Shown here piece by piece: positions 43,704 through 63,687 of a stretch of 64,000 nt of DNA. The first letter of the stretch is position 1, and each line of letters opens with the position of its first letter. Made by a program: the position numbers and the translations under genes. The stretch spans positions 497,803-561,802 of the forward strand of contig ML996687.1 in NCBI GenBank assembly GCA_010356995.1. The letters are read 5' to 3'. Below the pieces are notes generated by a model, which did no database searches, was not told where the DNA came from, and worked only from the letters and a program-made list of their open reading frames with translations. Source of the stretch: Trichodelitschia bisporula (lineage: Eukaryota; Ascomycota; Dothideomycetes; Phaeotrichales; Phaeotrichaceae).

Positions 43704-44744
43704 TGTGGTAAGTATGAAGCTGACAAAATGGTGGAGGGAGCACCAGAGAGATGGATAAGATGGAGGCTTAGTTGTATAAGATGGAGCCTGATTGTGCTGA
43801 CGTAGACCTTCTGCACCGGATACGATGCGTTCAATGAAGGTCGTTTGAAAACTGCTGCCTGGTGCAATGAGGAGACATGGCGCTGGTGTTGAGGTACAGG
43901 GCTAGCCTTTTTCAGCCCTAACCCCGCAGGCCCTACTTCGGGCGGAGCAGGGATCGGCGGGGCCGTGAGGCTGTGGGGGCCGGGCCTTGACGGAGCGGGC
44001 CGAGTAGGGTGGAATGCGTGGTACGGGAGACTCGGACTTGTGACTTCATCGTTCTTTGTTCTCGGAACTGGAGGCACGAAGGAATCGGTGAACAAAGCAA
44101 ATCTCTTCTGTGGCAAGGCTGAGAGCTTCAAAGAGGTTTTGTTCTCTGATTGCCCTGTCCACAAACTCGCTTTTAAATGTCTCGTTCTCCGCGGTACTCG
44201 ATTCTTGAGATCATCTACATCTCAAGAACCTCATATCTTAACCAAAATCATCTGTTTATCGTGCCCTAAAGCCTTGGATATGCGGTCACAGTCCGTTCAG
44301 AAGCCGAACCCAGAAGCAGCTGTGCCGAAACGGCGACCGCAACTCACCGACTTGCCACGCCTTCAAACCGAGCCCCCACCGACTCTGCAAGACCGCTATT
44401 GGCAGATGCTGAAGAAGCTTACAAATGCCCAGAAGTTGTCGCCGACTTTTCTGAGGCCGCAAACTATGTCTAGAGGTGGGCACTTCTTCTGAAATTCGAG
44501 AAAGATTCATGAGTCTGACTCCAAGTTAAGGGAACATAACGAGCTGATCTCCGATCTGGGAGTGCTACTCTCCTCGGAATGCTGAGGCTGAGCTGCATGT
44601 GTGCCAAGATTCTATTGGCTATTTGGCGTTATCGTCGTTCTGCACGCGCCCGTCTAGCGGGATTTCGCATCCATAAGTGCTATCCTCTCGCCCGCTGGCA
44701 CGCTTCTTTGTCGCAGGCTAACACAAGCGCAGCTTTGCCTCATC
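43704..44744. promoter_or_regulatory. Divergent spacer, no gene supported
   Basis: About 1 kb between divergent genes. A 175-codon plus-strand frame at 43965-44492 has no recognisable feature and is not called. Confidence 0.4.
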
Positions 44745-45713
44745 ATGCCCACCCGTCACATTATACCCCCCCCCATCCTCGCATGCATCATCTTCGCCCA
44801 ACAGGTATTCGCCGCAACGCGCTATTCCAATAACTACTGGGCCGCCAGATGGCTCAACTCCACCGATCTCGAAGCCTGCCATTACCGCACCGCCCGGACC
44901 CCACCCCCTGGCCAGTGCTATGAGATGGCCAACTGCATCCTAGAATCCCTCTCCGAGTACGCCAAAGTGGGCCTTGCGTCCGGCACCTCGGTCCTCAGCC
45001 TCGTCCCCTCGGCCCTCGCACTGATACCCGCGCGCGGGAGCGGAGTCGAAGAAATCTTCGAGACCATGGGTGTGCTGTACTTTCTCCTTAGCATCTTCTC
45101 CGGGTACGTACGCATCGGCGACGCGAGCTCGCACTTGGCCAAAGAAATTGGAGCCGAGCCCAACGCCGCCGAGGCCCAGTTTGAAAGGGGAAGAGAAAAG
45201 TACAGGCTGGGGAAGCGGCACTACGCTTTTTGCGGCTTGACGGCGGCGCTGGCGGGGATTACGGTGTTCCTTGCGACGGAGCTCGGCGTCCAGACCGTAG
45301 TGACATGGGCGTGTAACCACGAGCTGCTTCACGTCGGGTGGCTGTTCTGCCGGATGCTGCCCGGGTTGGCAGAGTTTGCTCTTGTGCGGCTGGTGCGGCG
45401 CATGCTTCAAAATCGTCCATCTTGGTCTGTCGGTGGTGTTGGATCCCGCGGATGGATCCTCGCGAAGGGGGCGAATGGTCTGAGCTTGGCCCTGTATGGC
45501 TTGGTGGTGATTTACGGGACAGGTCTTTTCGGCTCGACAAATTTGATTGATGGGGGCGAGGTCATGTGGAAGTATATGGTCATGTTTCCGCTATTGTACT
45601 TTGTTATGCAGTCCATGTTAGCAGCGGGTACGGTATGGAGGATATCCGACTCTCGAGGGTGTAGGAACGCTTCCCCTGGAGCGGTAGCTCTATCTGTTCG
45701 ACCAACCAAATGA
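44745..45713 (+). CDS. Polytopic membrane protein of an uncharacterised fungal type
   Basis: 322 aa, no intron needed. An N-terminal signal-like segment (IIPPPILACIIFAQQVFA) is followed by a short lumenal part with CHYRT and CYEMANC. Then comes NCILESLSEYAKVGLASGTS leading into VLSLVPSALALIPA. That Asn/Ser-x-x-x-Lys...Ala-Ser-Gly-Thr block before a Pro-containing span is characteristic of a common fungal membrane family with no assigned role. Five further spans are visible (YFLLSIFSGYV, FCGLTAALAGITVFLA, the stretch around LLHVGWLFCRML, GLSLALYGLVVIYG and MVMFPLLYFVMQSMLAAG). A charged loop sits around EAQFERGREKYRLGKRH. Function unknown; neither transporter nor receptor motifs are seen. Confidence 0.7.
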   Translation: MPTRHIIPPPILACIIFAQQVFAATRYSNNYWAARWLNSTDLEACHYRTARTPPPGQCYEMANCILESLSEYAKVGLASGTSVLSLVPSALALIPARGSGVEEIFETMGVLYFLLSIFSGYVRIGDASSHLAKEIGAEPNAAEAQFERGREKYRLGKRHYAFCGLTAALAGITVFLATELGVQTVVTWACNHELLHVGWLFCRMLPGLAEFALVRLVRRMLQNRPSWSVGGVGSRGWILAKGANGLSLALYGLVVIYGTGLFGSTNLIDGGEVMWKYMVMFPLLYFVMQSMLAAGTVWRISDSRGCRNASPGAVALSVRPTK

Positions 45714-46825: not shown

Positions 46826-47422
46826 ATGGCAGCATCCACCCGCCTCATCTGCCTCAGCGCCTCGGATATCAAACACGTCGAGCATCAAGCCATGGCCGCC
46901 AAACTCCGTCGAAAACCCTCCCTCCACCTCATTACCAGCTTCCCCACACCTCCAACCTCATCACACCGGTACTCGCGCTTCCAGCTCTCACCTCTCCACT
47001 CGACCTTCCCCTCTCAACAACCCACCTCGCACTTCTCCTGGGACTCCGACTACGGGCATCCAGAACCTTCATCAGCAAGCCCCTCATCCGCTTGCAGCAG
47101 CGCCAGTACTTCCGAAGGGTCGATGCTAGACCGGTACATGCTCGAGCCGCCGCTGGTGGTCCCGGTTGCACGACGAGTACGCCAGCCTGTACTGGCCTCG
47201 CCGAGCCCGAGCCCCAGTCCTGTCGAACGACAGTGCGAGCTCGGCGTGCACTTTACCACCGAGGAGGTCCCGGTCGTGATGATGTGTCCGATGGTGAATA
47301 GAGGCCGGGTGGGGATGGGAGACTATCTTTCCAAAGTGCATTTAAGGCACCGGGGGGAATGTATAGAGGGATGGACGGCTGTGGGCGACGCTGGAGGGGG
47401 GGTTTATAGGCTTGGCGTTTAG
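46826..47422 (+). CDS. Paralog cluster gene A (short member)
   Basis: 198 aa in one frame starting MAASTRLICLSASDIKHVEH. Its first half holds the cluster core, here YSRFQLSPLH (about residue 52), preceded by AAKLRRKPS. About 45 residues later comes a second block, MLDRYMLEPPLVVPVARR. Gene B has the same two blocks in the same order (YGRFALSPLF and DDYMLRHFMAEPPIAVPVPR) and a matching lead-in (NASEFILFQKATAATRLRRP), so A and B are closest relatives. The C-terminus, with VPVVMMCPMVNRGRVGMGDY, is its own. No signal peptide, membrane span or enzyme motif; composition is Ser/Pro-rich and largely disordered. Function unknown. Confidence 0.6.
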   Translation: MAASTRLICLSASDIKHVEHQAMAAKLRRKPSLHLITSFPTPPTSSHRYSRFQLSPLHSTFPSQQPTSHFSWDSDYGHPEPSSASPSSACSSASTSEGSMLDRYMLEPPLVVPVARRVRQPVLASPSPSPSPVERQCELGVHFTTEEVPVVMMCPMVNRGRVGMGDYLSKVHLRHRGECIEGWTAVGDAGGGVYRLGV

Positions 47423-49052
47423 GTTGGGTCAGGAAGGAGCGATGGGCTTCTGGGTGCGATGACGATATACATCAGACCCTCCGGTTTGACTGCAGTTCGG
47501 GAGCACGGGCATTGTCGATGGGCGCCAGTTTCATTTGCTTGAAGTTGGGATGTCTGTACGCGTAGTAGTTGATATGAGGCGGCAAAGAGCCTAGGAGATC
47601 AGTCAGTCGTCCTATTACAGTAATGTCCCAAAGCATGACTTGAACTTGAACATGCGCGATGGTCTGACGTCATAGAGTATGTGTGCTCCAAAGAAGCTGT
47701 CAGATGTGAGACCCGAAGCATCGGACTTAAGATAGCAATAGGACGGCGATGGCAGAATCCCCCCAGCTCAGGAGTCAGGGGAATATGCGAGCCGTTGAAT
47801 GTCCACCGAAATGTGTGTGCGTAGATGTACCCAGCCAAAAGGTGACTGGGATAGAAGCTCAGCCGGGAGGGCCCAGCTGTCAACAGAGTAGAGAGCAACG
47901 GCCATGAAGGGCAGCCTCAATGAGGGAGTAGGTGCGAATCGAGAAGGTCTGCTTCGTTGACAACGAATCTTCCATGGCTCCACTTCTCTACCATGCGAGG
48001 CTTCCTGTCCTGAGATTATTAGTGGCTGATTTGACATTTCGGTGGGTCGATCTGGCGATGAAGCGATTGGTTGTTAGGCTTCCCCAACCTTCATCCAGCC
48101 TATCTCCATTGACCATGTGAGCATCAAGACGAATCCGTCACTTTTTCCATCGCTCGACTTTCAAAGGCAATTGGGCAGCATGGAGCCTGCAAATATTTGC
48201 CGTCAATTCAGTTACTTCCTTACCATTCGCCTGCCGTGCGGGGAAGATACACATAAAAATGCGCTAATTTAGTGCAATTGGCTCACAGCGGCTGGACTGC
48301 AGCCTCTTTCGCATCAGTCACCATCAACCGTCCTCAACCCCAACCTCAGCTTTCTTCCCCTCCTTACGGATGTGCACAGTACGGACGTACTCGCGCATAC
48401 TCCGTAGAAACCCGAGCAAAAGGTCAGCTCACTCTCACTCCCGAGAAGAACACAGAGCAGCTCCGGGCTATCCGGCTGTGTAAGTACTCTCTTCTCCCCC
48501 ATTCCCAACCTCCCCCCCCCCACACTTGCTGTCTAATATTATCCCAAGCTTGCCCGAAGGTGTGCCCTGCAGGTTTCCAGTGCCAAGGTCACACCTCATG
48601 CGCCCATCACGCCCACGCACCTGCTATCCACCCGGCCTCATTGGCGGCCATGTTGGCCGGGGTAGCGCAACGGAACGTTTCGTGCCCTGTGGCGGGGAGA
48701 GTGGCCGCGGGGGCATGACCGGGTAGCAAACTGCTCCAAACCCGGTTCGGGCCCATTTCGGAGAACAATGTGGTGATGCGAGAGTCAGTTGCAGGCGCCA
48801 TTTTTTCCCTGGCTACCGTAATCACTAAGGACTACGAGCAAACATGCGACCCGCATTGCGCTCGTTCCTGGCCCCCCCGACACCTCCTTCCCCCGCAAAA
48901 CCGCCGTTGGGTCCTCTCCGCCGGGTGATATTCTTACTTAACGACCCGCAGCCGCCCAGTCAACCCGCGCGCGACCCAAGCTCTTCGCCGCGACCCACAC
49001 CGGGTGTCCGTACCCACCGTCCCACCTCCTCTCCTCCGCACGGCCTATCCCG
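47423..49052. other. Intergenic, nothing supported
   Basis: About 1.6 kb between genes A and B. Frames here lack similarity to the cluster modules and no repeat is obvious. Confidence 0.45.
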
Positions 49053-49766
49053 ATGCTTCCCCGGCGTCCGTCACCCCCGCCCTCCTACCGCCCCTCCTCC
49101 CATCCCTCTCGCACCTTAACCACCTCCCCACAGCCCGAGAGCGCATCACCCTCACCCTCCCCACCACCATCCTCAACCTCAACTCCCGCACCACGCGTCC
49201 CCCTCAACCTGAACGCATCCGAATTCATTCTCTTCCAAAAGGCAACCGCAGCAACCCGTCTCCGGCGCCCCTCCTCCCCCACCTCCCGGCCTGACACACC
49301 CGATCAAGCCCCGGCCCGCACGCAGTCGAGCCCAAAATATGGCCGCTTCGCGCTGAGCCCGCTGTTTCCGCCGCGCGATCTCGCCCTCCCGGTGCCGGCG
49401 CCGGCGCCGGCGCCTCGCCCACGGAAGAAGCGGGACGATTACATGCTGCGCCATTTCATGGCTGAGCCGCCGATTGCAGTGCCCGTCCCACGGGGGCCGG
49501 TGCCGGCACCGGGACTGGAGCTTGGCCGGCGAGCTTTGCCTACCGGCAGCGCCAGCGCCGACACCTCGCCTGTTGTTGAAGATACGAGCCCGGTGGGCGC
49601 GGGCGGGAAGGCTTGGTCGTATCATGGCGGAAATCCGCGGGGGGATGAGCGCGGGTACGATTTTAAGCCCTTCGTGGTTTACTCAAAGAGGAGGGGGGCG
49701 GAGGAGGAGAGGAGGGAGAGGAGGGGGCTGGACGGGAGTGAGAGGGGGGGATTCGAGCGGCGATGA
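49053..49766 (+). CDS. Paralog cluster gene B (short member)
   Basis: 237 aa in one frame from ATG 49053. After a Pro/Ser-rich leader come LNASEFILFQKATAATRLRR, the core YGRFALSPLFPPRDLALPVP (about residue 97), an alternating Pro/Ala stretch, basic RPRKKRDDYM and FMAEPPIAVPVPRG, then a Ser/Glu-rich part and GYDFKPFVVYSKRR. The order of blocks matches gene A. The tail is highly charged (EEERRERRGLDGSERGG). The leader's composition suggests the start could lie downstream or that an upstream exon was missed. Unknown function. Confidence 0.58.
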   Translation: MLPRRPSPPPSYRPSSHPSRTLTTSPQPESASPSPSPPPSSTSTPAPRVPLNLNASEFILFQKATAATRLRRPSSPTSRPDTPDQAPARTQSSPKYGRFALSPLFPPRDLALPVPAPAPAPRPRKKRDDYMLRHFMAEPPIAVPVPRGPVPAPGLELGRRALPTGSASADTSPVVEDTSPVGAGGKAWSYHGGNPRGDERGYDFKPFVVYSKRRGAEEERRERRGLDGSERGGFERR

Positions 49767-51770
49767 CCATAGTAGAAGGGCAGAATTTTTGATGGGATGA
49801 AGGAAGGGCTGGTCAACCAAGCGGCCCTACGGTGATGAAGCGGCCTTGCGGCGACGGGACCTGTAAAAATGGTCTCTGGAGCACTTGCATCATGATGCCC
49901 TGCGGCGGGTAGTCGCGCAGTGGCCCGCATTACCCGCAACTGGCGTCTGTAATTTTGAGATATCCTGGATCCGAATGCGGTCCTTTAGCGGTAGATGAAA
50001 AGCAAATTAGCAGTCCTCATAACCGAAGCCAAATCTTGCAGTGATTGAAGTGCAGCCAAAAGGTGAAGCTGCAGGCGACTTTCCATGCCACGTGATGAAG
50101 TCTCGGGCGGTTCGGCAATCTCGCTTATCGTCGCTTATCGCGGCTCGATCCGCGTTACACGACGTTGGGTTCGAATTATTGGTACCACGGAAGTACCCCG
50201 CTTCATGGCACCGGCTGCATATGTCTGGTGCTCTCGCGGTCGCAAAAGCGGTCAGAATGCCTGTCCCGTCCTGCAGGCAAGGTACGCGCCTTTACAGCCG
50301 GGCATTGGCCAGCGCCATGCACTCGAAGCGCCCCTAAGTTGTTAGGCCCCCCCCGAACCTTGGAGGTCAACAGCCGGACTTGAGCGGGCGAGCATATGTA
50401 TCTTGGAAACGATAGATCCGTTTCCTACACTGTACCAATCCGCGCGACCACCCAGCCGCCGGGGAGCTTCCATCTTTCGCTGGGCAGGAGAAACATCACA
50501 AGTGCGGAGATGCCATGACAAGTGCGGAGAAATCGGGTTTCGGGCGATCCCACGATACTGTGGATTGATATCTCGTTTCAACACGCGGGAGAAGGCAACG
50601 AGAGCTTCTAGTCCGCCACGGCGAGGGGTCGGTGTGCAACTGTGTTACCTGAAGAAAAACGAAATCACCTCAAAACGGCGCAGTGCATCCTGGCCAATGG
50701 CCGCTAATTAGTCCCGTTTTCCTTGCTAATTAGTGGCGTCTCCATTGCTATCTGTGCGTTTGGCTCCCCACATGGAGCGCGACGCACTCACTTGCAGAAA
50801 ATAATGCCGCGGGTGAACTCACTTATCAACCATCGAAATGTCTGACTCCTAACGAAGAAGATCTACGCGAAGGATCCTCAGATGCTGCGTCAGGCTGGGC
50901 CATTGAGCCTCCACTTTAAAACCGGACACAGCGGAACTCAAAAGCTCACGGTTCGAGAGAACGTTTTCGTGGACATTCCTCGAGTCCAGGCGACTTGTGA
51001 GAAGTACATTTGCTCCTCAACCACTAACTCCGCTCCATCCTGGCGCAGCCCTTGACCTCATTACCGCTGGCCGAAAGGCAGACCATACCGTACTTTCTTA
51101 ACCGTACCAAACCAGGCCAGGCCGGAATCCCATCTTCTGGGATTCAGCAATCAGATGGAAACATCAGGTACGATACGTTGCAAATGGCTTCTGATGAACT
51201 TCGAGGTGCAAAGGGTCATTAGTACCTGGACTCCACACCCATGGAGCACCAGATGTTTTGTCCGCGAAGATATTATGATGGCTCTGATTGAAAGTCCACG
51301 ATGCTCAAGTATTGGCTAACGCACCAGCCATCGGCTGGGCAGCGGTTCTGTACGACCATGGGCCGTCCCGATCCAGTAACATCGGAGACCTTCCCGCCAG
51401 CTCGTCCCCCAAGATGGTCCGTCCCCTTTCACCCTGCGTCCATCAACCCGGCATCCCTGCCCCTCATCATCCACCGCGTGATGGCCGAATGCGGGGAGTG
51501 GTTCAGGGCGTTAGCACGGGCGGGTAAATTCGACTCCTTCAGGTGAAATTAGGAGAGTTCTAGCCACATCCAGGGGCGTTTGTGTCCCTTTTGCTAGCTG
51601 AGTACAGCCTTATCTAGTTATATGGCAGCCTTTCCAACTTCTACTTCAGCACCGCCTTCGTCCTTCCCCTAGATTGATGGTGGTTGTTCCGTTCCTGCTT
51701 GTTCGTCTTTCAGTATGATCCAGGTAGCAGCTATCCGTACCGGGTAGTCGATCTGCAAACACCAGCGACC
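49767..51770. other. Intergenic, nothing supported
   Basis: About 2 kb between genes B and C. Short frames only. A pyrimidine-rich leader and a TATATGG at about 51620 precede gene C; an in-frame extension of C upstream to 51684 is possible but has no module similarity. Confidence 0.45.
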
Positions 51771-54140
51771 ATGGCCAGCCCAACCGAAGCAGTCAGCCTG
51801 GTCTCTACCACGATTCCGGAAATTGACATCGCCCTCGCAAAGTCCCAGGCGTTCGCTTCGAAAGAGCGCCGTATGAAGCGGAACTCAGAACAGCGGCCGC
51901 TGTTCAACTGGCTAGGAGAGCGGTACAGCCAATTCGCACTCTCACCGCCGTCCCCCAAGGCCTTCACCTTTGCACACCACTGCTCCATCAGTGAAGCCTC
52001 AGTACCCAAGTCGTTGCTGGAACAGCACCTCGACAAGTCACCCCCACCCGCGTCCTCACACAGGCTGTCGACAGCCCTGGAAGGCAAGCCTGTCCGAATC
52101 GACGCCTCGAGGAAACAGATCAATGTCGAACCCGTAGTCAAGCCCGTGGTGAAGCCCGCCAGAATCAATGCCTTGAAGAAGCAAGCCACCGTCGAGGCCT
52201 CGCTCACCAGCCCCACCGTCACCAAGAACCTCTGGGCCTACCTCGCGGGCATCGGGTCCAAGGCTGAGCGTCCCGTGCCAGTCCTCGACCCAGCAAGGGT
52301 GACCTCTAGTCTGCCCACCGGTCCGAAGGATCCAGTTGCAAAACCTGTATCGGGTCCCCGGGCACCACACAAGCGCTCCGAGAGCGGTGCGGCCGTAAGG
52401 CCGGGCAGTGTGCATCGTTCCAGCGGGATCACCAGCAGCGTCTCAGCCTCACCGAACCCAACGGCTCCCACTAGGACACCCAGTCCCCCGACTGCCGGTC
52501 CAGCGCCTTCCTCCCACTCACTCACGCCGACAACCATCTCCCTGCCCATCGTCTCGGGTGGGCTTGTACACGGTACGAGCGGTGCGGAGCCCAGAAGCCA
52601 CTTTTCACCGATCAGCCCGGACAGCGCCGTGAGCGGCCCACCCGCAGTGCGAAGCTACTTCTCGCCCATCAGTCCGGACAGTTCGGCGAGCAGTTCACCC
52701 GCAGTACGGAGCTACTTCTCACCCATCAGTCCGGACAGCGCCACGGGCAGTACACCTTCGGTACATGCCGCGGTCAGGAGTCACTTCTCGCCTATCAGCC
52801 CCAACAGCGCTGTGAGTAGTCCACCCGCCACCAGGAGCCACTTCTCGCCCATCAGTTCGGACAGTACTGTGAGCAGTCAAAGGTCATCGGATGCCTCGCT
52901 TGTGTACACCACACCCCGGACCAGAAATCCAACGGAGCCGATTTCCCCGCCGCCCATGGCGCCGACTGCAGAGTCGTTCGGCCGTGAGTATATGCTGATG
53001 ACAATCAGCTTGTCACCATCGATCTACGATCCGCCGCCTGCTCCCACCCTCAGCGCGTTTCCTGTCGACCTCCCCGCTAGCCCGACCATTTCCCGTCCAT
53101 GCCCGATCGATACCTCACCGAACCCCCGCTCCCTCATCGCCGACTCGCCATACCCGGGCTTCGGCACCGCGACCTCCAGCACCGACTCTACATACGGATC
53201 CACCTCCTCCCTCGCCGGTCCCGACACCCCCGCCCCCCTAACAGCAAAGCGCATCGACTCACCCCCCGCGCCCACTCACAGCCACTTCCCCTCATCCCGC
53301 CCCGCCCCCCCCCTCCTCAAACGCAGCTCTGCCCTCTACCCCATCTCCCCCTTCCCCTCCCCGAGGTTGCCCGGCAGCCCAGCCCCCACCCCGCGCTTCG
53401 CCCGTTTCCCGGCGAACCGGGCGCTGCGCGCGCTGGACACGAGCGTCGGCGGACTGAGCAGCCGCATGTCGCCGAAGAGCATGGACGACGCGTATGAGGA
53501 TGAGGATGTGACGCCGACGGCGGAGCGGCCGCGCGGGGGGTTGCATAGTGCGCCGGCGAGTGCGGCGCCGGTTACGGCGGTTGAGCTTGGGGCGGGGATG
53601 GGGGGGCAGGAGGGTGTGGGGAGTGGGAGTGAGGGGGGGAGTACGCCGAGTAGTGAGCGGAGTGATACACCGTTTCCGATGACGCCGACGGCTGTGGCGT
53701 GGCCGTCGTTTGAGGATCGCGTGGCCAGTGGAGAGAAAAAGCTAAGGGAGGAGGAGGGGGATTTTCTTGTACCGGTTGAGAGGGGTGGGGCTGTGAGAGT
53801 GGGCGAGGGAAGTTCGGTGGAGGATTTGCTTGATTTGCACTTCAATGAAGAAGTGCGTGGTCGCGGGGAAGGGCAGCGTATATCGCGTGAGCTGCCGGAG
53901 CGGAGGAACAGGAGTGAGAGCCCATTGCGCTCGCCAACTGCCGGGTTGTATTCGGAGCTGCAGAAGAGGCCCGGCGCGACGATGACGGAGGAGTTGCTGA
54001 CGCCGGCGGTGTATGACCCGCACGCGGACAACATGTTTTCGTCGGTGATGCCGAGCAAAAAGTTTTATGCACTGCCGTCGGGGAGGCAGAACGACAAGAA
54101 CTTCATCTTGGGGGTGTATTTTAACCGGTCGTCAGGTTAG
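51771..54140 (+). CDS. Paralog cluster gene C (long member)
   Basis: 789 aa, intronless. Modules shared with gene E, in the same order: IALAKSQAFASKERR (about 23-37); the core YSQFALSPPSPKAF; SPTVTKNLWAYLAGIG (about 145-160); a repeat region; YDPPPAPTLSAFPVDLPASP with IADSPYPGFG; LDTSVGGLSSRMSP then SMDDAYEDEDVTPTAERPRG (about 555-590) and LHSAPASAAPVTA; SSERSDTPFPMTPTAVAWP; and a C-terminal module with LLTPAVYDPHADN, SKKFY and NFILGVYFNRSSG. Most of the protein is Ser/Pro-rich and predicted disordered by eye; only the short modules look constrained. In place of E's Pro repeats it carries five SPISPDS units. No targeting signal or enzyme motif. A scaffold of short linear motifs is a reasonable guess. 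Confidence 0.7.
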   Translation: MASPTEAVSLVSTTIPEIDIALAKSQAFASKERRMKRNSEQRPLFNWLGERYSQFALSPPSPKAFTFAHHCSISEASVPKSLLEQHLDKSPPPASSHRLSTALEGKPVRIDASRKQINVEPVVKPVVKPARINALKKQATVEASLTSPTVTKNLWAYLAGIGSKAERPVPVLDPARVTSSLPTGPKDPVAKPVSGPRAPHKRSESGAAVRPGSVHRSSGITSSVSASPNPTAPTRTPSPPTAGPAPSSHSLTPTTISLPIVSGGLVHGTSGAEPRSHFSPISPDSAVSGPPAVRSYFSPISPDSSASSSPAVRSYFSPISPDSATGSTPSVHAAVRSHFSPISPNSAVSSPPATRSHFSPISSDSTVSSQRSSDASLVYTTPRTRNPTEPISPPPMAPTAESFGREYMLMTISLSPSIYDPPPAPTLSAFPVDLPASPTISRPCPIDTSPNPRSLIADSPYPGFGTATSSTDSTYGSTSSLAGPDTPAPLTAKRIDSPPAPTHSHFPSSRPAPPLLKRSSALYPISPFPSPRLPGSPAPTPRFARFPANRALRALDTSVGGLSSRMSPKSMDDAYEDEDVTPTAERPRGGLHSAPASAAPVTAVELGAGMGGQEGVGSGSEGGSTPSSERSDTPFPMTPTAVAWPSFEDRVASGEKKLREEEGDFLVPVERGGAVRVGEGSSVEDLLDLHFNEEVRGRGEGQRISRELPERRNRSESPLRSPTAGLYSELQKRPGATMTEELLTPAVYDPHADNMFSSVMPSKKFYALPSGRQNDKNFILGVYFNRSSG
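52591..52880 (+). repeat. Five SxFSPISPDS units within gene C
   Basis: Units of about 60-75 bp encode [RS]-[SH]-[YF]-FSPISPDS followed by a Ser/Pro linker and VRS or TRS. They begin near 52600, 52650, 52708, 52780 and 52840. Copies differ at silent and coding positions. Confidence 0.85.
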
Positions 54141-54969
54141 ACTTACGGCCTGGCGCCGCTGGCTGGACGTTGGTGCATCTGAGGGTTGGGATGCGGGTAA
54201 CCCGTCGTGAATGCCGGGTAACCACGTGTGGATGACGGGTAACCTGACGTGGGTGACGGGCGCCTAGCTGTCTAAGACGGGTAAAAGGGTATTCATGACG
54301 GGTAACGAGCGTGTCAGTTACGGGTAACTGGACGTCAACGGACTTGGGAATGAAACGGACATTCATCGATTCGCAAACATGGCATGGGAAATAGGTTGGA
54401 CGTTTACGCTGGGAATGGATCAGGGCGGACATCTGGAAATTTGCGGTCTCAGACATCGTGTCTTTCTCTTTTGGGCAAGCATTGGCGCTTGGGTGGTTAC
54501 CGTCCTTTTGATTAGTTAGCTAATGACGAACGGCTGGAAGACGAGCGATACTGACTGGTCCAAGAACTACGGATCAACGAAAGAAACGCCCTTTTATAAT
54601 GCAGTGAAACATCTAAAGCATACTGAAACAGCTGCTCTGGAGCGTGCCAATTGTTGCAGTCGGCTGATGTTGGTTGCCGGTGATTGGAGGTCGTTGGACG
54701 AAGAATTGTGGCGGATCACGGAGTTCTGACGCTCCTAACTACCCGACATGGAATGTCAAGCACCAGACAGTCCAATGCTGCGCTGAAATACACCAGAAGA
54801 GGCGTGGAAGTACCGAGCATCGGAATCGCTCCGGAACGATAACCATCAATATTCAAGTCTTCATATACTGACTATGCTAACATTACGCTGATATAAGCAA
54901 TCCACCCACCATGGGCACGTATATCTCTATGCATTCCATCTCCACACAACGCCAAACCCAACCCCCCAA
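54141..54969. other. Tail-to-tail spacer of genes C and D
   Basis: Contains the 3' UTRs of two convergent cluster genes and the 21 bp minisatellite described separately. No gene supported; a 68-codon plus frame at 54523 has no features. Confidence 0.5.
54191..54345. repeat. 21 bp CGGGTAA minisatellite, seven copies
   Basis: CGGG cores start at 54194, 54215, 54236, 54257, 54278, 54299 and 54321, so the period is 21 bp almost without exception. The consensus is near TGACGGGTAACNNGACGTGG; the fourth copy has lost TAA. The repeats are too short and unspaced to be a CRISPR array. Confidence 0.9.
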
Positions 54970-56262
54970 CTAAGCCCCCATCCCAACCCCAAACACCTCC
55001 CTCTCCTTCCCCGCACCCCCCCCACCCTTCTCCCCCAAATCCACACTCCCTAACCCCCTAACAACCCACCCCGGCACCCCCTCCCCCTCCTCCACCCCCA
55101 CCCCCACCACCCCTCGCGGCCACGCCATCGCCACAGGCGTCATCGGACTAAATGGATACGGACTCTCCGTCGAACCCGCCGTCGCCGGACTCTCCATAAC
55201 CCGCACATCCGCCCGCGCCGCAAACCGTACCCGCGCCCGACTCGCATTCCTCTCCCTCTCATCCACCACCCGCCTATCATCCCCCCATCTCGCCCTCGCC
55301 CCCTCCTCCTCCTCACTCTCCCCACCTCGCGATCTAGACCGACTCCCAAGCCGCGGCGTCGGCCGCGCAGCCGTAGGTGTAGGATCATCGTCCTCCTCCG
55401 CCCGTCCCCGGCTGCTGCTCCGCAGCGCCCGCAGCCGCGCCGCACCCACACTCGTGTCCAGCGCGCCGAGTGCGTGCGTGCCGCGCGGCGCGGGGACGGG
55501 GACGGTGTGCGCGCGTTGTGGCGGGGGGCGCGCGGTGAGCGGGATTGCCGTCTGCGGACCGTCTGGCACGTCGCGGCTTTGAAGGGAGGAAAGTGGCGCA
55601 GGGCGGGATTTAGGCGGTGAAGACAGAGCGGAGGAGAGGGAGGAGAGGGTCGAGGTTGCAGAAGCGCGGCGCGCGGGGCTGGGCGTGCGCGAGCGCGCGG
55701 AGTGTAAGGAGGAGCGGCTGGAGGAGCGGGAGCTTGCGGCGCTGGGTGTGCGGGACGATATGCGTGTGCGCGAGCGCGGGGGCGGAGTGGGGAGAGCGGA
55801 GGCGAGGGAGGAGAAAGTTGTGCTGGTGGTGCTCGGCGATGCGGCGGCAGAGCGGCTCGAGAAGCTCCCGAGCGCGCGCAGGATCGGGCTCGTCGCAGGA
55901 TCGATCGGCCCGTCGCGCTCGGCCCAGCGACTCGTCCACCCCAGATCGCGAGCGCTTGTCGGTGTGGCGGCCGCGCTCGGTGACGGCGCGATGGGGAGGT
56001 CGGCGAGGAAGGCGTCGAGCATGACGGGTTTGCGCCCCGCGGTGGGCGTGGGTGGAACGTCTGCTGAGGTTGAGGGTTGCGGGCGGAGGGAGAGGACTTT
56101 GGGACTGAGGGGTGAGATGGCGAAGTGCGTGTATTTGCGGTCGCGATCTGGGAAGTCGCTGGCGATGGTGCGCTCGATGCTGGGCGGGAGGTGGGTGCGG
56201 CGGTCGCGGAGGGAGGATGAGCCTGGTGGGGTAGAGGCGGAGGGGGTGGTTGGGCTGGGCAT
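54970..56262 (-). CDS. Paralog cluster gene D (inverted member)
   Basis: 430 aa, intronless, on the opposite strand to its four relatives. It starts MPSPTTPSASTPPGSSSLRD and carries the core YTHFAISPLSPKVLSL (about residue 43), then MLDAFLADLPIAPSP, a block in the position of A's MLDRYMLEPP and B's FMAEPPIAVP. A Ser/Arg-rich middle follows, then ALGALDTSVG with DDDPTPTAARP and PYPFSPMTPVAMAWP; the last nearly equals gene E's PFPFSPITPVAMAWP. It lacks the KNLWAYL block and the C-terminal YDP...YF module of C and E, ending instead in a Gly/Glu-rich tail, KEREVFGVGMGA. D thus links the short (A, B) and long (C, E) forms. Function unknown. Confidence 0.65.
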   Translation of the reverse strand: MPSPTTPSASTPPGSSSLRDRRTHLPPSIERTIASDFPDRDRKYTHFAISPLSPKVLSLRPQPSTSADVPPTPTAGRKPVMLDAFLADLPIAPSPSAAATPTSARDLGWTSRWAERDGPIDPATSPILRALGSFSSRSAAASPSTTSTTFSSLASALPTPPPRSRTRISSRTPSAASSRSSSRSSLHSARSRTPSPARRASATSTLSSLSSALSSPPKSRPAPLSSLQSRDVPDGPQTAIPLTARPPPQRAHTVPVPAPRGTHALGALDTSVGAARLRALRSSSRGRAEEDDDPTPTAARPTPRLGSRSRSRGGESEEEEGARARWGDDRRVVDERERNASRARVRFAARADVRVMESPATAGSTESPYPFSPMTPVAMAWPRGVVGVGVEEGEGVPGWVVRGLGSVDLGEKGGGGAGKEREVFGVGMGA

Positions 56263-57848
56263 GATAAACGGAAGATCGCAAGGATGCTGACGGCCGATCT
56301 GCGCGCCGGTTCAGGATGCGACGGCAGAATGGCACTGTCGACGACGGAGACAAGACGGGACGGGATGACGGGGGATCTAGGGCGAAGATATGCAAAGGGA
56401 AGGCTAAAGGAGGTGCTTTGGAGGGGAAGGGGGGCCGCGAGATGGGCCGCAGGTTAAAAGGATGCTCATCCGCAGTGTGCGAGTGCACAGCACAAGCGCA
56501 TGCCCCGTGTGGGAGATCAGACGTTGCAGGCTAATGCACGAGGGGGCAGCTGCCCGTATGGCTGCCCGGCTACGGTGCGAGGTTCTAAGCCACAGACCGC
56601 GGCGGTCGCCCGGCTGTGTGATGCCTGACCAGGGCGGGAGGGGGGGTTTCCGAGTGAAAGGGCGGGGGCTGGGCCGGGAGACTGATGGCGGAATATTAGC
56701 TTCAGTGCGATGCATTCGGGGGCGTATTCTGAGGGCCAATATCGATACAGGATGTGTTAATGAGACGGAAGGGGAAGTATTAGCTTCAGCCCCGGACACC
56801 TGGGGGGTGGATGGAGAGCCAATACAGGCTCATTTTGCCTGCAAGTCGGGGCAACTTGGCCCCTTCCTAATGCGGTGAAGTTGGTAGTATTTTGCTAGCC
56901 GGGGCGCGTAAATTCGGCCACTGACAGGAGGCATGTTCAGGCTGGGGGAAGGGCACGGGTCGAGGCAGTACGGTAGAGTTTTGATCGGCGAGGCGCAGGA
57001 GGGCGGAGACGGGATGGAGAGGGGAAGGCGATGGAGAGCACTCAAAGGATTGAGGCATTTGGGACATAAAAAGTAAAGAAGTAAAGAAGTAAATACTGTT
57101 AAGAGGAAGTTCCATTCCTTGCAGTTGATGATCCTTTGATGCAAGAAATGTTGGATAATTAGCAAGAGAATGAAGGAGGACCACTGTCTTCTGTTACACA
57201 AGATCCGTCGTACCCAGTGGAGAGGTGAGGGGAAACACGGCCGAGAAAGCGGCCGACTCCTTCGCTCTCTAAGCGCCGTGGTTGTGCGCTACGTCCGAAT
57301 CAGACGTGGGGAACCAACACAACATTCTCCAATTGGCCAGAAAGGCCCTGGGCTGCGATTCTTCAGCCTCGCGATTGGCCCCACCCCCCGCACCCCCCAG
57401 ACAACGCCATGTCGAACTGCCATGTCCTCCCCTGTACAACACCACACTACACGTGAAGCCTCTTCACGCTGCATGAAGGAAGCGGGGGACCCAGGCGGGA
57501 GAGCCCTAGGAAATACGGACCTGTAGCAATCGACTGAGGCGTTCGGGTCAACAGTGATCAACCCATCCGAGGGAGGGGGTATAAGTTTCTTGGGGGGCCT
57601 TGCAGCGAGCACCGCAGCACACATTTCCGCCAGCAGTTTCCCGTCTGCGTTGCTCCCCCCCGTCAGTATTTCATTTGCCTCGCTGTCGGGTTTCCTTTTC
57701 TGTTCCTCTTTTCTCTCGTGCTTTGTCATTTGGTTGCTGTTGTCGTCTTCGTTGCTGTCTTCATTGTCGGTGTCGCCTTCATCGTTCGCATCTGCATCTG
57801 TGGAGCATAATCACTCCTTAATACGCCTAATCGCTCACCACACTCACC
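56263..57848. promoter_or_regulatory. Divergent spacer of cluster genes D and E
   Basis: About 1.6 kb between the starts of D and E, so it holds both promoters. A TATAAG at 57580 lies about 270 bp before E's ATG in a G-rich context and could be a TATA element. The 200 bases before E are strongly pyrimidine-rich. No gene is supported. Confidence 0.4.
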
Positions 57849-60800
57849 ATGTCCTCCAACACCACCAACCCACGGGACGTTCTCCCAGCACCCAAACCCG
57901 AGCTCACCCTCGCAATCGCCAAATCCCAATCCGAAGCCCAAGCCAGCAAAGACCGCCGAGCAAGCAAAATCTTCGCCCGGACCGAGAAACCCCTCCTATC
58001 CCGCCTCGGAGACCGTCTAGACCGAAAATACAATCAATTCGCCCTCTCCCCCCTCTCCCCAAAAGCCTTCGGACCCTCACTCCACCAATCTACAACCCGC
58101 GGTCCCTCAGCGCCCATGCAACGCTTCCTCGACCCAGGCCGCACGCCCGCCGCCTCCGCCGCACCTAACCAGCCTCAACTCGTCGTCCGTGCCGTCGCAG
58201 ACGCTCAGTCCCTCGACAACCAACCGCCCAGCCCGACGGTGAGCAAGAACCTCTGGGCCTACCTCAGCGCAATGGGGAAAGAGCAGCGCAGCGTCCCGGG
58301 GCCGGGTCTACCCGCGCACCCCAAAGCTCCGGGCCCGCGGCCCACCAAACGCTCCCCGCTCGCGTACCGCACGGCCTCAGCCTCCGGGCAGACCAGTCCC
58401 GCGGCCAGCACGCACAGCCTCGCGTCCGCGGCATCTGGGCGGACAGAGCGCTCGACCCGGAGCCGCAGGGAAAAGGCCCCCGTCCAGCCGGCCGAGGCGC
58501 CGCGTATCCAGCCCACGTATGAGAAGATCGAAGCGCCGCTGTCGAAGCCGACAGGCATGTATCCGCCCCCGGCACCTGCTCGGATGGAAACTAGCCAAGC
58601 TTCGGCGGCCCCCAGCGCTTCGGTGGCCCCCAGCGCTTCGGCCCGATCGTCAGGATCTTCGGGTGCGACCCGCAGCTCAGGGTCCTCAGGAACGAGCCGC
58701 GCCGTCGTGGTAGGCTTGCCAGGCTCGAACCCCGCACCGGTCCGCTCCCCTGGCGCATCATCCGTCCGATCCTCAGGGTCAGGCGCCATGCGGTCGCCGG
58801 GCGCGTCAAGCGTGCGCTCGAGCAGCAGCCGCGCGAAGGAGACGACGCGCACGACAATCCCACCTCCGGCGCCGACGCACGACTCCTTCACGGCCGATCT
58901 CCCGAACATGAGTATCAGCATGAAGCCCTCGGTGTTCGATCCGCCACCCGCGCCGACCCGCGACGCTTTCGCCGCCAAACCGGTTCCCCCGCAAAGCCCA
59001 CCGCTGGCTATGCGCTCGCCGTTCGATCCGCCGCCTGCGCCTACGCGCGATGCTTTCCCGGCTAAAGGAGCGGCGGCGCCGCAGAGCCCGCCGCTAGCTA
59101 TGCGCTCGCCGTTTGATCCGCCGCCTGCGCCGACACGGGATGCTTTCCCCGTCAAAGCTAGTGCCCCGCAAAGCCCACCGCCGGCGATGCGCTCGCCGTT
59201 CGATCCCCCGCCAGCACCCCTGCGGTCCGAATTCCCAGTCGATCTCCCGAACAGCCCGCCACTCACCAAACCCTCACATTTCGACCCACCCCCCGCACCG
59301 ATGCTGTCCCAGTTCCCTGTCGACCTCCCAGCAAGCCCAACCGTCGCGCGGCCCTACCCCATCGACATCGTGGCATCAAACGGCCCGCAGCAGCAGCGCT
59401 CTCCCGCCATCGCCGACTCGCCCTACCCGGGTCTCGGCAACTTGACCCCGTATCCAATGTCCCCGTTCCCGGAACCGCCCGCCGCCCCGACGATAGGGCA
59501 CTTCGTCGAGGTGCGCCCATCCGCGACGCTCACGCTCGCAAACATGCCCGCCAGCCCACCGGCCGATATCCCCGACCCGCCCTCCGCGCCGATGAAGAGC
59601 CGCTTCCCCGAAAGCAGGCCCGTCATGAGCGTGACGGTGTCGAACCCAGGTTCGCCCGCACTGGTCCCGAACAGTCCGCCCCCAGCGCCAGTAAAATCGC
59701 GTTTCGCGGAAAGCAAGCCGACGGTGGCACCTCTCTCTCCACCGCCGCCACCCGCAGCCGCCCCAACCGGTTTATCGCGTTTTGCTCCCCCGCCCGCACC
59801 CGTAAAGGGGCGCTTCGCCGAAAGCAAACCCGCCGTCGCACCCCTCTCCCCACCAGTCCGGGCAGCCACCTCGCCCGTCCCCGCACCACTCCCCGCACCT
59901 ACACGGCCGAGCTTCGCAGCGCCCACGCGTCTCAGCTTCGAGTCACGCGGGCGCCGCCTGCTCGGCCCGCTGGACACGAGCGTCGGTGGTCTGAACTCGC
60001 GGATGAGCCCGCGCAGTATGGACGACGCATACGAAGACGAGGATCCAACGCCTACGGCCGCAAAGCCACGCGGGCGGGGTTACGGGCTGCACAGCGCACC
60101 AGCAAGCGCAGCGCCAGTAACCGCAATCAACGCGCCCATCATCGAGCGGGAGGAGCGGTCGCCCCTAGCCGAGGCCGCGACGCAGTCCCACGCTAACCAG
60201 TCCCAAGCGACCACGCCCAAGGGCGTCGTATTCACGGGACGTGACGAGGTGCACAGCCCGCTCAGCGGGCCGAGCAGCGGCCCATCCAGCCTAGGCAGCC
60301 CGAGCAGCGAGCGGAGCGACACGCCGTTTCCGTTTTCGCCAATTACGCCCGTGGCAATGGCGTGGCCTGCCTATGGCGACGCCGTGAGCTCGAGCGAGGC
60401 GGCGCGGCGGCGGGCAGAAGCGGCGGCGGCGGAGGAGGAGGGGGATGAGGATGATTTCATTGTGCCGATGGATACGAATATGATGCTTAGCATCAAGGGG
60501 GCGGCGGCGGTTAACAGTGCCAAGGCCGATCCGTTGCCGCTACACATGTTTAGGGGCGAGGAGTTCCGTGGGCGGGACGCGAGTGTGGCGAGCCAGCATA
60601 GGCGGAATCGGAGTGCGAGTCCGATGCGCCCGTCGAGTCGGGGGTTGATGAAGAGGCATGGGACGGATGCGGAGATGCTGACTGCGGCGGTGTATGATCC
60701 GAATGCGCCGAAGACGCGGGGGTTCCGTGCCATCTCGTCGAAGAAGTATAGCGACAAGGGCTTGATTCTCAAGACGTACTTTGATCGCTGCTCGACGTAG
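57849..60800 (+). CDS. Paralog cluster gene E (longest member)
   Basis: 983 aa, intronless. Starts MSSNTTNPRDVLPAPK, then LAIAKSQSEAQASKDRR, LSRLGDRLDRKYNQFALSPL (core at about residue 60), SPTVSKNLWAYLSAMG (about 128-143), a Ser-rich region, then a long run of Pro-rich repeats (about 355-690). The conserved half follows: LLGPLDTSVGGLNSRMSP, SMDDAYEDEDPTPTAAKPRG, LHSAPASAAPVTA, SSERSDTPFPFSPITPVAMAWP split over two adjoining blocks, a Glu-rich acidic stretch with DDFIVPMDTNMM, and the C-terminal AVYDPNAPKTRGF, SSKKYSDKGLILKTYFDRCS. All of these except the repeats match gene C in order. A long antisense frame exists but is explained by the high GC content. No domain with a known role. Confidence 0.72.
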   Translation: MSSNTTNPRDVLPAPKPELTLAIAKSQSEAQASKDRRASKIFARTEKPLLSRLGDRLDRKYNQFALSPLSPKAFGPSLHQSTTRGPSAPMQRFLDPGRTPAASAAPNQPQLVVRAVADAQSLDNQPPSPTVSKNLWAYLSAMGKEQRSVPGPGLPAHPKAPGPRPTKRSPLAYRTASASGQTSPAASTHSLASAASGRTERSTRSRREKAPVQPAEAPRIQPTYEKIEAPLSKPTGMYPPPAPARMETSQASAAPSASVAPSASARSSGSSGATRSSGSSGTSRAVVVGLPGSNPAPVRSPGASSVRSSGSGAMRSPGASSVRSSSSRAKETTRTTIPPPAPTHDSFTADLPNMSISMKPSVFDPPPAPTRDAFAAKPVPPQSPPLAMRSPFDPPPAPTRDAFPAKGAAAPQSPPLAMRSPFDPPPAPTRDAFPVKASAPQSPPPAMRSPFDPPPAPLRSEFPVDLPNSPPLTKPSHFDPPPAPMLSQFPVDLPASPTVARPYPIDIVASNGPQQQRSPAIADSPYPGLGNLTPYPMSPFPEPPAAPTIGHFVEVRPSATLTLANMPASPPADIPDPPSAPMKSRFPESRPVMSVTVSNPGSPALVPNSPPPAPVKSRFAESKPTVAPLSPPPPPAAAPTGLSRFAPPPAPVKGRFAESKPAVAPLSPPVRAATSPVPAPLPAPTRPSFAAPTRLSFESRGRRLLGPLDTSVGGLNSRMSPRSMDDAYEDEDPTPTAAKPRGRGYGLHSAPASAAPVTAINAPIIEREERSPLAEAATQSHANQSQATTPKGVVFTGRDEVHSPLSGPSSGPSSLGSPSSERSDTPFPFSPITPVAMAWPAYGDAVSSSEAARRRAEAAAAEEEGDEDDFIVPMDTNMMLSIKGAAAVNSAKADPLPLHMFRGEEFRGRDASVASQHRRNRSASPMRPSSRGLMKRHGTDAEMLTAAVYDPNAPKTRGFRAISSKKYSDKGLILKTYFDRCST
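58917..59870 (+). repeat. Pro-rich repeats within gene E
   Basis: About nine to ten units built on DPPPAPTRDAFP...SPPxAMRSPF in the first part (four nearly identical copies of about 84-90 bp from 58934 to 59220). They grade into SPPPAPVKSRFAESKP-type units further on (59680-59850). The same PPPAP motif occurs once in gene C. Confidence 0.85.
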
Positions 60801-61370: not shown

Positions 61371-63112
61371 CTATGTCTCCGACTCCATTACGTTTTCCGG
61401 TATGTTGCGCAACTGGTAAAGCATCATAAACGCCATCGTCCCCGGATATATCGAGACCGAATCGATGACCTTGACGCCGAGCTCCTTCTTTCTCCCAATG
61501 AGCATCATCCCAAGATCCTCGGAGAAGTCACTCCCAAGTAGAGTAAAGAATTCAGTGTCCTCGACGGTGTATCGTACCCATCCGCCCGCCCAGATGTGGG
61601 AGGCGTCGAGATTCTGAGCGCTCATTTGCGCCCATCGACAGACGGCCTTCGAGGTCTCATCCCGGTAGCCGACCTTGTACAGCACGTATTCTAGCCCCTT
61701 AGGATCCGCGTTGTATGCCGCGGTCACTTCCATCCAATGGAAAAATGCAAAATCTCTCCAGTCGCTGAGCGCTGGCATGTCCGAGTCAGGGTCCAGGAAT
61801 TCAATCGGGACGTAATTGGCCACTATAATCATGCCCACGTGAGGGCAGTGGTGGTTGATAAAGTACGCCTCCGTTGGCTATCGCCGTGAGCTTCGCATCT
61901 TAATATGGACAGCATACTTACCTCCTCGAGTTTGCCCCACTCCCCGCCGATTTGCTCCCACGGAATGTAGTGAATGGCTACTCGCGCTTCCTCGGTCGTA
62001 TCCAAGCCCTCTAAACGCAGTGCTTTCAGGATGGGGGCAACAGTCGGCGACTTGAGAAGAGGCGCATGAGAAATTGGCTCCTCGGTCTCGATGAGAAGAG
62101 CATACAAGGGGTTGTCCGTCCACCCATAGGCGTGCAAAAGCGCGCTGTCGAGTTTGGGGAATGGTACTGCTATATCCTCTTTTACATAGTCCGAGGCTTC
62201 CTGTGTGGTTCGTCGGTTCATCGCTTCATATGCCTTCCTTCCTCTGGATGCCAATTCTTCCAAGCCTTCGCTATTGGCGACAAGGGTACGACGGCGGGCG
62301 GTAAACTGACGTGGTGGAATATCTTCATGCGATCCGTCCAACGGCGGAGCCTTCGAACGATGGCCTCTCTCAGGGGACCCAGGGATCTCATATATCACAG
62401 GGATGTCGTTGAAGGAAACCTTGCGTCGGCGGGGCTCCAAATCATCGGGGTTCAGAGCCAGCGGGTCTTCAGTGTAACTTGGGTCCGAACTTGGTTTGAC
62501 GGCGGGCTTGGGGACGAGTAGGTGAGAGAGTACAGTGGCCGCGATTTCATCTACATATGTTACTCCATCGTCATCGGCTCGCGTCGCAGGCCGAGTCGAC
62601 CGAGATGCAGATCTGGCCAAAGGGGCACCGAAATCAATCATTTCCGGTGGAGAGGCCGCGATGTCCTCTACATATGTGACTCCGTCATCATCGTGTTGCT
62701 TCGCAGGCCGGGCAGGCCGGGATGCAGTTCTCGCCAAAGGAAAGCCGAAGCCAGCCGTGTCCTGTACAGAGGCCGCGGTGTCCTCTACATATGTGACTCC
62801 GTCATCGCCGTCTTGCTTCGCAGGCCGGGCAGACTGGGGTGCAGATCTCGCCATAGGATGGCCGAAGTCAATCACTTTCGAAAGCGGAGACTTTGATAGC
62901 TCTCGCTCGGCGTCTTCATCAAGATTGAGAGACGTCGGGTCTTCAGTGGAACCTGGATTCGAGCTTGGTTCGACGGCGGGCCCAGTTTCGACCGGGTGAG
63001 AGAGTGGAGGGGCCGCGATGTCCTCCATGGCGAATATTGTTCCATATTCATCGTCTTGCTCCGCTGGCCGAGATGTATGGGATATCAAAAAAGGGTGGAC
63101 GGGGTCAATCAT
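61371..63112 (-). CDS. Unnamed family protein, copy 2, with 39-residue repeats
   Basis: Exons 61922-63112 and 61371-61877 (44 nt intron, GTAAGT...GATAG) give about 565 aa. The N-terminal half contains three and a half repeats of 39 residues (core DDGVTYVEDTAAS...FGxPLARSASR). They are flanked by two related acidic segments (VEPSSNPGSTEDPTSLN and VKPSSDPSYTEDPLALN). The C-terminal half matches the protein at 16590-17993: FPKLDSALLHAYGW, ARVAIHYIPW, HVGMIIVANYVP, LSDWRDFAFFHWME, DPKGLEYVLYKVGY, and FTLLGSDFSEDLGMML then GVKVIDSVSIYPG. The intron sits at the same alignment position and phase 0 as the second intron of that gene. Domain function unknown; no catalytic motif apparent. Confidence 0.78.
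62538..62888 (-). repeat. Three 117 bp coding repeats
   Basis: CTACATATGT marks occur at 62551, 62668 and 62785, exactly 117 bp (39 codons) apart. A degenerate fourth unit lies near 63010. Units are 75-85 percent alike by eye. Confidence 0.88.
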
Positions 63113-63462
63113 GCTGGGAAGCGGATGTACTGGCTAAGATAGATGGTCAAAGAAATACGGTGTACGAAGTTGGGTAAAAGCGGATGTCTGGGTAGATGTG
63201 GAGTTGAGAGGATTGCAAGCTCGCGAGGACATGTAGATCTGGCAGTGCCATCTCTGCGATGGCAGGTGTGCCAGGCAACGGGCGGTCTTTCCATGAAGGG
63301 CGGCTGTGGAGGGACGGATTGCGCCTGGAGAGAAGTTGAGGTACTTGGAGCGGAAATGGCGATGGAATCAGAATGTGGTCGCTAAACGGCAGGCTCCCCC
63401 ACGCCCGACAGGCTGCTCTACGGACCGGCCTACCGCTGATGTCGTCCATCCCATCCAAAATT
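63113..63462. promoter_or_regulatory. Upstream region of the 61.4 kb gene and of the tRNA
   Basis: 350 bp with the promoter of the minus-strand gene. Short frames only, no repeat. Confidence 0.4.
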
Positions 63463-63549
63463 GGTCGGTTAGCTCAGTTGGTTAGAGCGTGGTGCTAATA
63501 TGTATGTCATGTAACGCCAAGGTCGCGGGTTCGACCCCCGTACTGACCA
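63463..63549 (+). tRNA. tRNA-Ile (anticodon AAT) with a 13 nt intron
   Basis: The acceptor stem GGTCGGT pairs with ACTGACC (63542-63548), with discriminator A at 63549. The D-arm has TAGCTCAGTTGGTTAGAGC (A box), and the T-arm has GGGTTCGACCCCC (B box). The anticodon stem is TGGTG with CGCCA, and the loop CTAATAA gives anticodon AAT. A 13 nt intron (63501-63513) lies after position 37, the canonical site. A T5 run at 63559-63563 is the likely polymerase III terminator. Confidence 0.95.
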
Positions 63550-63687
63550 TCACCAGTCTTTTTGCTGCTGCTGCCATTTGAGGTACGCCGCTTTTTGCCC
63601 GCTGTCGACATCTGGCGTGGACAGAGTGTTGGCGATAGTCCCTTCCCCCATGCGGTACATGGCGGGCGGAACGCGGATGACGGCCAT
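63550..63687 (-). CDS. Possible very small protein or last exon, antisense to the tRNA terminator
   Basis: A 45-codon frame starts at an ATG in the good context GACCATGG and begins MAVIRVPPAMYRMGEGTIAN. It ends KAAYLKWQQQQKDW, with its stop directly abutting the tRNA 3' end. The sequence looks protein-like and could also be the last exon of a gene starting to the right. The tRNA terminator T-run is the complement of its Lys codons, which argues for caution. Confidence 0.3.
   Translation of the reverse strand: MAVIRVPPAMYRMGEGTIANTLSTPDVDSGQKAAYLKWQQQQKDW

Follow-up and report, generated by a model that had tools for sequence, protein, structure and literature searches.

A 64,000-nucleotide stretch of the genome of Trichodelitschia bisporula (contig ML996687.1, positions 497,803 to 561,802 of the forward strand; here called the window) carries five consecutive genes, A to E, whose predicted proteins share a short core motif, Tyr-x-x-Phe-x-[Ile/Leu]-Ser-Pro. 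As judged by sequence comparison, C, D, and E are certainly paralogues that arose long ago from one gene, A is a paralogue of B, and all five probably form one family, the tie of A and B to C, D, and E resting mainly on the core. We tentatively regard the cluster as a set of old, locally duplicated genes, with inversion, for disordered, Pro/Ser/Ala-rich, phospho-regulated scaffolds or adaptors.

Core motif and probable kinship of the five genes

The genes lie in the order A(+), B(+), C(+), D(-), E(+), with C and D tail to tail and D and E head to head, the starts of the latter two being about 1.6 kb apart (Table 1). Each was read as one exon, from sequence alone, and all five frames are open at the coordinates assigned to them in a first-pass annotation of this DNA. 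The base at position -3 of the start is G in A, C in B, and A in C, D, and E.

The five core sequences quoted in that annotation are all present. The pattern Y..F.[ILV]SP has five matches in the six frames of the window, one in each of the proteins A to E and none elsewhere, and the looser pattern [YF]..F.[ILVM][ST]P finds the same five, against chance expectations of 0.09 and 0.365, respectively, from 200 residue shuffles of the frames; when A to E were themselves shuffled, a mean of 0.0025 proteins carried the core. Because the pattern was derived from the five proteins themselves, the shuffle figure flatters it. A comparison with other Ser/Pro-rich frames, which the annotation had named as a test, bore the motif out: among 89 window open reading frames (ORFs) of at least 100 amino acids (aa) and at least 20% Ser plus Pro, exactly A to E carry the core (5 of 89). 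An Arg-Arg pair stands upstream of the core in all five proteins (alignment A1, N-terminal module), and the core extends as LSPK in D and E and as PSPK in C.

The homology tests within C, D, and E and within A and B are independent of the core pattern. In BLASTP, where each E-value is that of a single comparison, C and E match at 1e-43 over the C-terminal part and at 1e-16 over the N-terminal part, most conserved regions being aligned, D and E match at 2e-13 over the region from LDTSVG to the AWP block and at 2e-5 over the core region, and A and B match at 9e-6 over the N-terminal block, the core, and the second block. The Smith-Waterman scores of A/B, C/D, C/E, and D/E are reached by none of 200 shuffles, whether the core is masked or not, and tblastn of the five proteins against the window (E up to 0.01) matched only A to E, with A/B at 0.002. 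The annotation had explained the cluster by tandem duplication followed by divergence. Local duplication stands, with paralogy within C, D, and E and within A and B; since D is on the minus strand, the duplication was not plainly tandem and included at least one inversion.

When C and E were aligned by blastn, so that the regions compared were picked from the nucleotides, the mismatches over 422 in-phase columns numbered 19, 14, and 58 at the three codon positions (chi-square p 5e-9). This third-position bias indicates that C and E are protein-coding and that their shared blocks are under purifying selection. The corresponding counts are 3, 3, and 12 for D/E (p 0.011) and 6, 6, and 13 for C/D (p 0.14). 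In blocks picked for protein similarity, and therefore biased, the proportions of synonymous and nonsynonymous differences (pS and pN) are 0.65 and 0.19 for C/E and 0.64 and 0.37 for A/B; the nucleotide-chosen alignments supersede such protein-chosen counts for C/E, D/E, and C/D. The divergence of C and E looks old from these sequences. Selection on the proteins, as the annotation had suggested, is thus upheld, by the nucleotide-chosen alignments among C, D, and E, for C versus E and weakly for D versus E.

An all-against-all profile comparison, proposed in the annotation as a check, gave a divided result. With leave-one-out N-terminal profiles, the held-out member ranked first behind the four training members in all five runs (753 window ORFs), at E-values of 5.7e-9 for E, 9.6e-7 for C, 1.3e-4 for B, 1.5e-4 for D, and 0.11 for A, with best decoys at 0.22 to 1.6; the link is gone when the core is masked, as discussed below. 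Because a decoy reached 0.0033 in a run with a D+E profile, the result for A is unconvincing alone. A profile of A, B, and D found E at 1.4e-5 and C at 0.0015, to be read against that decoy from another run. The second block, ML..[FY][LM]..[PL]P[ILV], a pattern picked by eye and after the fact, has six-frame matches in A, B, and D only and none in 60 shuffled windows. The [EL]PP[IL] block attributed earlier to A, B, and D occurs in A and B only, D having DLPI at the aligned letters, and with 15 six-frame matches in the window it is no proof by itself. The best cross-group Smith-Waterman pair is B/D, whose score is reached by 3 of 200 shuffles, with the core masked or not.

Conserved blocks, repeats, and composition

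Two blocks noted earlier in C, D, and E were recovered there and nowhere else in the window: LDTSVG and the TPxAMAWP-like block, the latter as T[PA][TV]A[MV]AWP, with three matches each. TPTA is present as described (two in C, two in D, and one in E) but is not distinctive, with eight six-frame matches; all three window matches of D[PV]TPTA lie in C, D, and E.

The pattern PxAPxxxxF, which is the invariant part of the repeats in C and E and was itself the search pattern, has 14 matches: 10 in the repeat stretch of E, 3 in C, and 1 at residue 951 of E, inside the C-terminal block, which may be a chance match. PP.AP....F occurs 10 times in E and twice in C, versus shuffled means of 0.02 and 0.01. 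C also has FSPISPDS-like repeats of its own, with four FSPISP, and the paralogues therefore expand different elements between conserved blocks.

We considered and rejected multivalent SH3-ligand scaffolds as a reading of these repeats. The class II consensus of SH3 ligands is PxxPx[KR]. Like such scaffolds, 7 of the 14 PxAPxxxxF matches carry it, and E has 8 class II matches versus 3.41 expected (18 of 1000 shuffles); unlike them, the basic residue is missing from all three C repeats and from 3 of 10 E repeats, and class I ligands, [KR]xxPxxP, number 0 in C and E. NDR-kinase-like (H.R..[ST]) and 14-3-3-like patterns occur at chance level in C, D, and E. Ser-Pro and Thr-Pro (SP/TP) sites exceed shuffled numbers in C (41 versus 25.5; 0 of 1000 shuffles) and in D (21 versus 13.2; 12 of 1000).

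Ser, Pro, Thr, and Ala together make up 36 to 51% of A to E. On a simple composition scale, disorder-prone residues account for 59 to 89% of the five proteins, versus 7 to 43% in six Pfam-matched neighboring frames and 19%, 25%, 69%, and 71% in four further frames. For E, AlphaFold modeling of the N-terminal module from 5 sequences gave a mean predicted local distance difference test score (pLDDT) of 54, and modeling of the C-terminal region from 3 sequences gave 47; the predicted template modeling score (pTM) was 0.14 in both cases. One predicted helix, residues 131 to 144 of E, spans most of the NLWAYL block. Composition and these low-confidence models, which are too poor for a fold search, support the disordered regions proposed in the annotation.

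In agreement with the annotation, which recognized no named domain, A to E matched no Pfam-A family at E up to 1 (the query of E lacking its Met) and none at E up to 0.1 in NCBIfam, a prokaryote-centered library. Domain databases cover disordered, fast-diverging families poorly. PDB profile searches found no relatives. No relative was found in viral contigs, where the only queries were E and the C/D/E C-terminal alignment, or in prokaryote genomes, where that alignment was the only query. The peptide strings FALSPLSPK, LDTSVGGL, TPVAMAWP, and QFALSPLSP had no literature match, among the papers listed by keyword searches no title or abstract opening describes such a family, and the proline and SH3 parts of PMC7275032 contain nothing matching A to E. 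Any novelty of the family is to be read within the reach of the Pfam-A, NCBIfam, PDB, and literature searches.

Features and surroundings of the cluster

Table 1. Genes, conserved blocks, and repeat stretches of the cluster (window coordinates; TRF, Tandem Repeats Finder)
Feature	Position	Strand	Remarks
Gene A	46826..47422	+	198 aa; open frame; core YSRFQLSPL at 46970-46996; BLASTP to B 9e-6
A N-terminal block DIKHVEHQAMAAKLRR	46865..46912	+	aligned with B; likeness to C and E blocks by eye (alignment A1)
A second block SMLDRYMLEPPLVVPV	47120..47167	+	aligned with B
Gene B	49053..49766	+	237 aa; open frame; core YGRFALSPL at 49338-49364
B N-terminal block EFILFQKATAATRLRR	49221..49268	+	aligned with A
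B second block YMLRHFMAEPPIAVPV	49440..49487	+	aligned with A
Gene C	51771..54140	+	789 aa; core YSQFALSPP at 51924-51950; BLASTP to E, third-position bias
C N-terminal block PEIDIALAKSQAFASKERR	51816..51872	+	aligns with E 57897-57959
C block SPTVTKNLWAYLAGIG	52209..52256	+	strict pattern in C and E only
C FSPISPDS-like repeats	52593..52871	+	57-bp period in part (TRF); FSPISP 4 observed, 0.00 in shuffles
C stretch with three PxAPxxxxF repeats	52944..53288	+	
C LDTSVG...EDEDVTPTA block	53433..53522	+	
C AWP block SDTPFPMTPTAVAWP	53661..53705	+	
C C-terminal block EELLTPAVYDPHA...YFNRSS	53988..54134	+	aligned with E
Gene D	54970..56262	-	430 aa; inverted; core YTHFAISPL at 56107-56133; BLASTP to E
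D second block VMLDAFLADLPIAPSP	55978..56025	-	resembles A and B second blocks
D LDTSVG...EDDDPTPTA block	55369..55461	-	
D AWP block ESPYPFSPMTPVAMAWP	55117..55167	-	
Gene E	57849..60800	+	983 aa; core YNQFALSPL at 58029-58055
E N-terminal block PELTLAIAKSQSEAQASKDRR	57897..57959	+	aligns with C 51816-51872
E block SPTVSKNLWAYLSAMG	58230..58277	+	residues 128-143; predicted helix 131-144 in low-confidence model
E stretch with ten PPxAPxxxxF repeats	58857..59816	+	87-bp period in part (TRF)
E LDTSVG...EDEDPTPTA block	59970..60059	+	
E AWP block SDTPFPFSPITPVAMAWP	60315..60368	+	
E C-terminal block AEMLTAAVYDPNA...YFDRCS	60669..60794	+	aligned with C

The four gaps between A and E contain 15 stop-to-stop frames of at least 100 aa with half or more of their length in a gap; the longest of them (213 aa) extends into E. 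Five of these and four shorter frames were compared with Pfam; eight of the nine gave nothing at E up to 1, and the ninth matched at E 0.16 over 10 residues only, which is meaningless. The earlier statement that no unrelated gene lies between A and E thus holds to the extent that none was recognized among these nine frames, but a small gene may be present. Between D and E, at 57289-57810 on the minus strand, is an open frame of 173 aa, acidic in an N-terminal stretch and without a Pfam match.

Upstream of the cluster are adjoining frames that match the SPX and citrate-transporter families, frames matching GH47, SDE2, and DUF1751, and a WD40 frame whose best match, THOC3, is under the curated cut-off of that family. 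This gene content marks the DNA as fungal, probably that of a filamentous ascomycete. The left flanking frame, at 44739-45710, encodes a 324-aa hydrophobic, membrane-like protein that has no match in Pfam. The same holds for the minus-strand open frame at 41073-43901 (943 aa, rich in Gly, Pro, Ala, and Glu), which showed no relation to the five proteins in tblastn; in unfiltered blastn, with low complexity kept, a weak 66-bp, 76% match links 42210-42274 to D (55052-55113) and is probably due to low complexity. The right flanking frame, at 61829-63133 (minus strand), matches no Pfam family and contains 3.0 copies of a 117-bp (39-aa) tandem repeat at 62530-62879. ARAGORN predicts a tRNA-His gene with anticodon ATG at 63462-63551 on the plus strand.

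Proposed function, alternatives, and significance

When a disordered protein retains a few short blocks amid sequence turnover, it usually works through linear motifs. We infer docking, phosphorylation, scaffolding, and location of A to E from their sequences as follows. The shared N-terminal tail (Arg-Arg and YxxFx[IL]SP, followed in A, B, and D by MLxx[FY][LM]xx[PL]P) would let the proteins dock to a common partner, and modification of its Ser-Pro sites by a proline-directed kinase would tune the binding. C, D, and E would gain contact or phosphorylation sites from two more blocks, LDTSVG...TPTA and the S/T-P-rich TP[TV]A[MV]AWP, and the repeated PPPAPxxxxF element of C and E would confer multivalency. 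A to E would then be scaffolds or adaptors under phospho-regulation, with the hyphal cortex or septum as a possible site of action; filamentous ascomycetes have similar disordered proteins that collect at septal pores, according to excerpts of PMC10023807. We favor a phospho-tunable docking tail because the core ends in Ser-Pro, because C, D, and E have a further SPK after it, and because C and D show an excess of SP/TP sites.

Several results weigh against this proposal. SP/TP sites are not enriched in E (36 versus 33; 298 of 1000 shuffles), and the full cyclin-dependent kinase form, [ST]P.[KR], is under expectation in C (1 versus 2.67) and in E (1 versus 3.65). Disorder does not single out A to E, since the domain-less frames at 61829-63133 (69%) and 41073-43901 (71%) are nearly as disorder-prone, and a low pLDDT says little about disorder when it comes from three to five sequences. 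A codon-usage score trained on 2548 codons of Pfam-matched frames failed to tell genes from antisense frames (per codon, 0.048 for E versus 0.086 for its antisense frame, -0.053 for A, and -0.016 for B), and codon scores are therefore not counted either way. Once the core is masked, no leave-one-out profile recovers its member (A at rank 103, the other four unlisted, decoys to 0.0019), so A and B may belong through the core only.

This last result raises the possibility, which we consider somewhat unlikely, that A and B on the one hand and C, D, and E on the other are two unrelated small families sharing a convergent or widespread short linear motif for the same partner. The same would be suggested by the six whole-protein Smith-Waterman scores between the groups, which 3 to 40 of 200 shuffles match or exceed, by the A+B profile, which matches none of C, D, and E, by the C+D+E profile, which gives A at E 13 and leaves B unlisted, and by a gapless 16-residue block test that gave no significance for A/D (146 of 1000 shuffles) or for B/D (143 of 1000). 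A common origin is favored, however, by the occurrence of the core once in each of five consecutive genes and nowhere else in the six frames, by the Arg-Arg ahead of it, by the reach of the A+B+D profile to E and C, by the second block of A, B, and D, post hoc as its pattern is, and by the B/D score with the core masked.

It seems improbable that A to E belong or are related to the disordered SPA/SPP septal-pore proteins of Pezizomycotina (Neurospora SPA and Aspergillus oryzae Spp). Several of these proteins from filamentous ascomycetes are, like A to E, disordered, proline-rich, and without recognized domains (excerpts of PMC10023807), and SppN, which was divided into residues 1-265 and 265-1234, is described there as disordered along its length, specific to Pezizomycotina, and equipped with conserved proline-rich motifs near the N terminus. 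However, this likeness is one of general make-up, and the composition reported in the same excerpts, rich in Arg and His and poor in Lys and Gly, is seen only in part: R/(R+K) is 0.68 to 0.90 in A to E but 0.66 to 0.81 in five of six Pfam-matched neighboring frames (0.47 in the sixth), and His amounts to 1 to 2% in B to E and 5% in A. The excerpts mention no five-gene cluster.

It is very unlikely that the cluster encodes TOR substrates or adaptors, with FPVDL in the C and E repeats as a TOR signaling (TOS)-like motif binding Raptor/Kog1. FPVDL resembles FDIDL and FEMDI, which are listed in the TOS table of PMC2813880, and F.[VILM][DE][VILM] has one match in C and two in E, all of them FPVDL, the count in E being reached by none of 1000 shuffles. 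Copies in a repeat array are not independent, however, the one match in C is reached by 66 of 1000 shuffles, and D has none. Unlike in TOS-motif proteins, the motif is not kept across the repeats (3 of 13; others read, for example, FPAKG, FPVKA, FPESR, and FAESK), and we rejected this reading. That A to E are not genes, only chance open frames in GC-rich DNA, is hardly credible: there are long open frames antisense to C, D, and E too, and codon scores fail to tell the two strands apart, but the third-position bias of C/E and the frame-consistent homology within C, D, and E and within A and B argue otherwise, although for A and B the codon-level evidence comes only from the blocks chosen by protein similarity.

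Our proposal of phospho-regulated scaffolds or adaptors could be carried further, to a reading that we regard as speculative and on the whole unlikely: an unnamed fungal scaffold family with a new docking motif, YxxFx[IL]SP (joined by MLxx[FY][LM]xx[PL]P in three members), whose paralogues have diverged in valency. A and B would have little beyond the N-terminal module, D would add two C-terminal blocks, and C and E would add the PPPAPxxxxF repeats as well, so that the cluster would supply a graded set of competing and cross-linking adaptors for one partner.

The short blocks that survive while the intervening sequence turns over are candidate interaction sites, and the short A and B, the medium-sized D, and the long C and E offer built-in comparisons for finding the partner and for the effects of valency.

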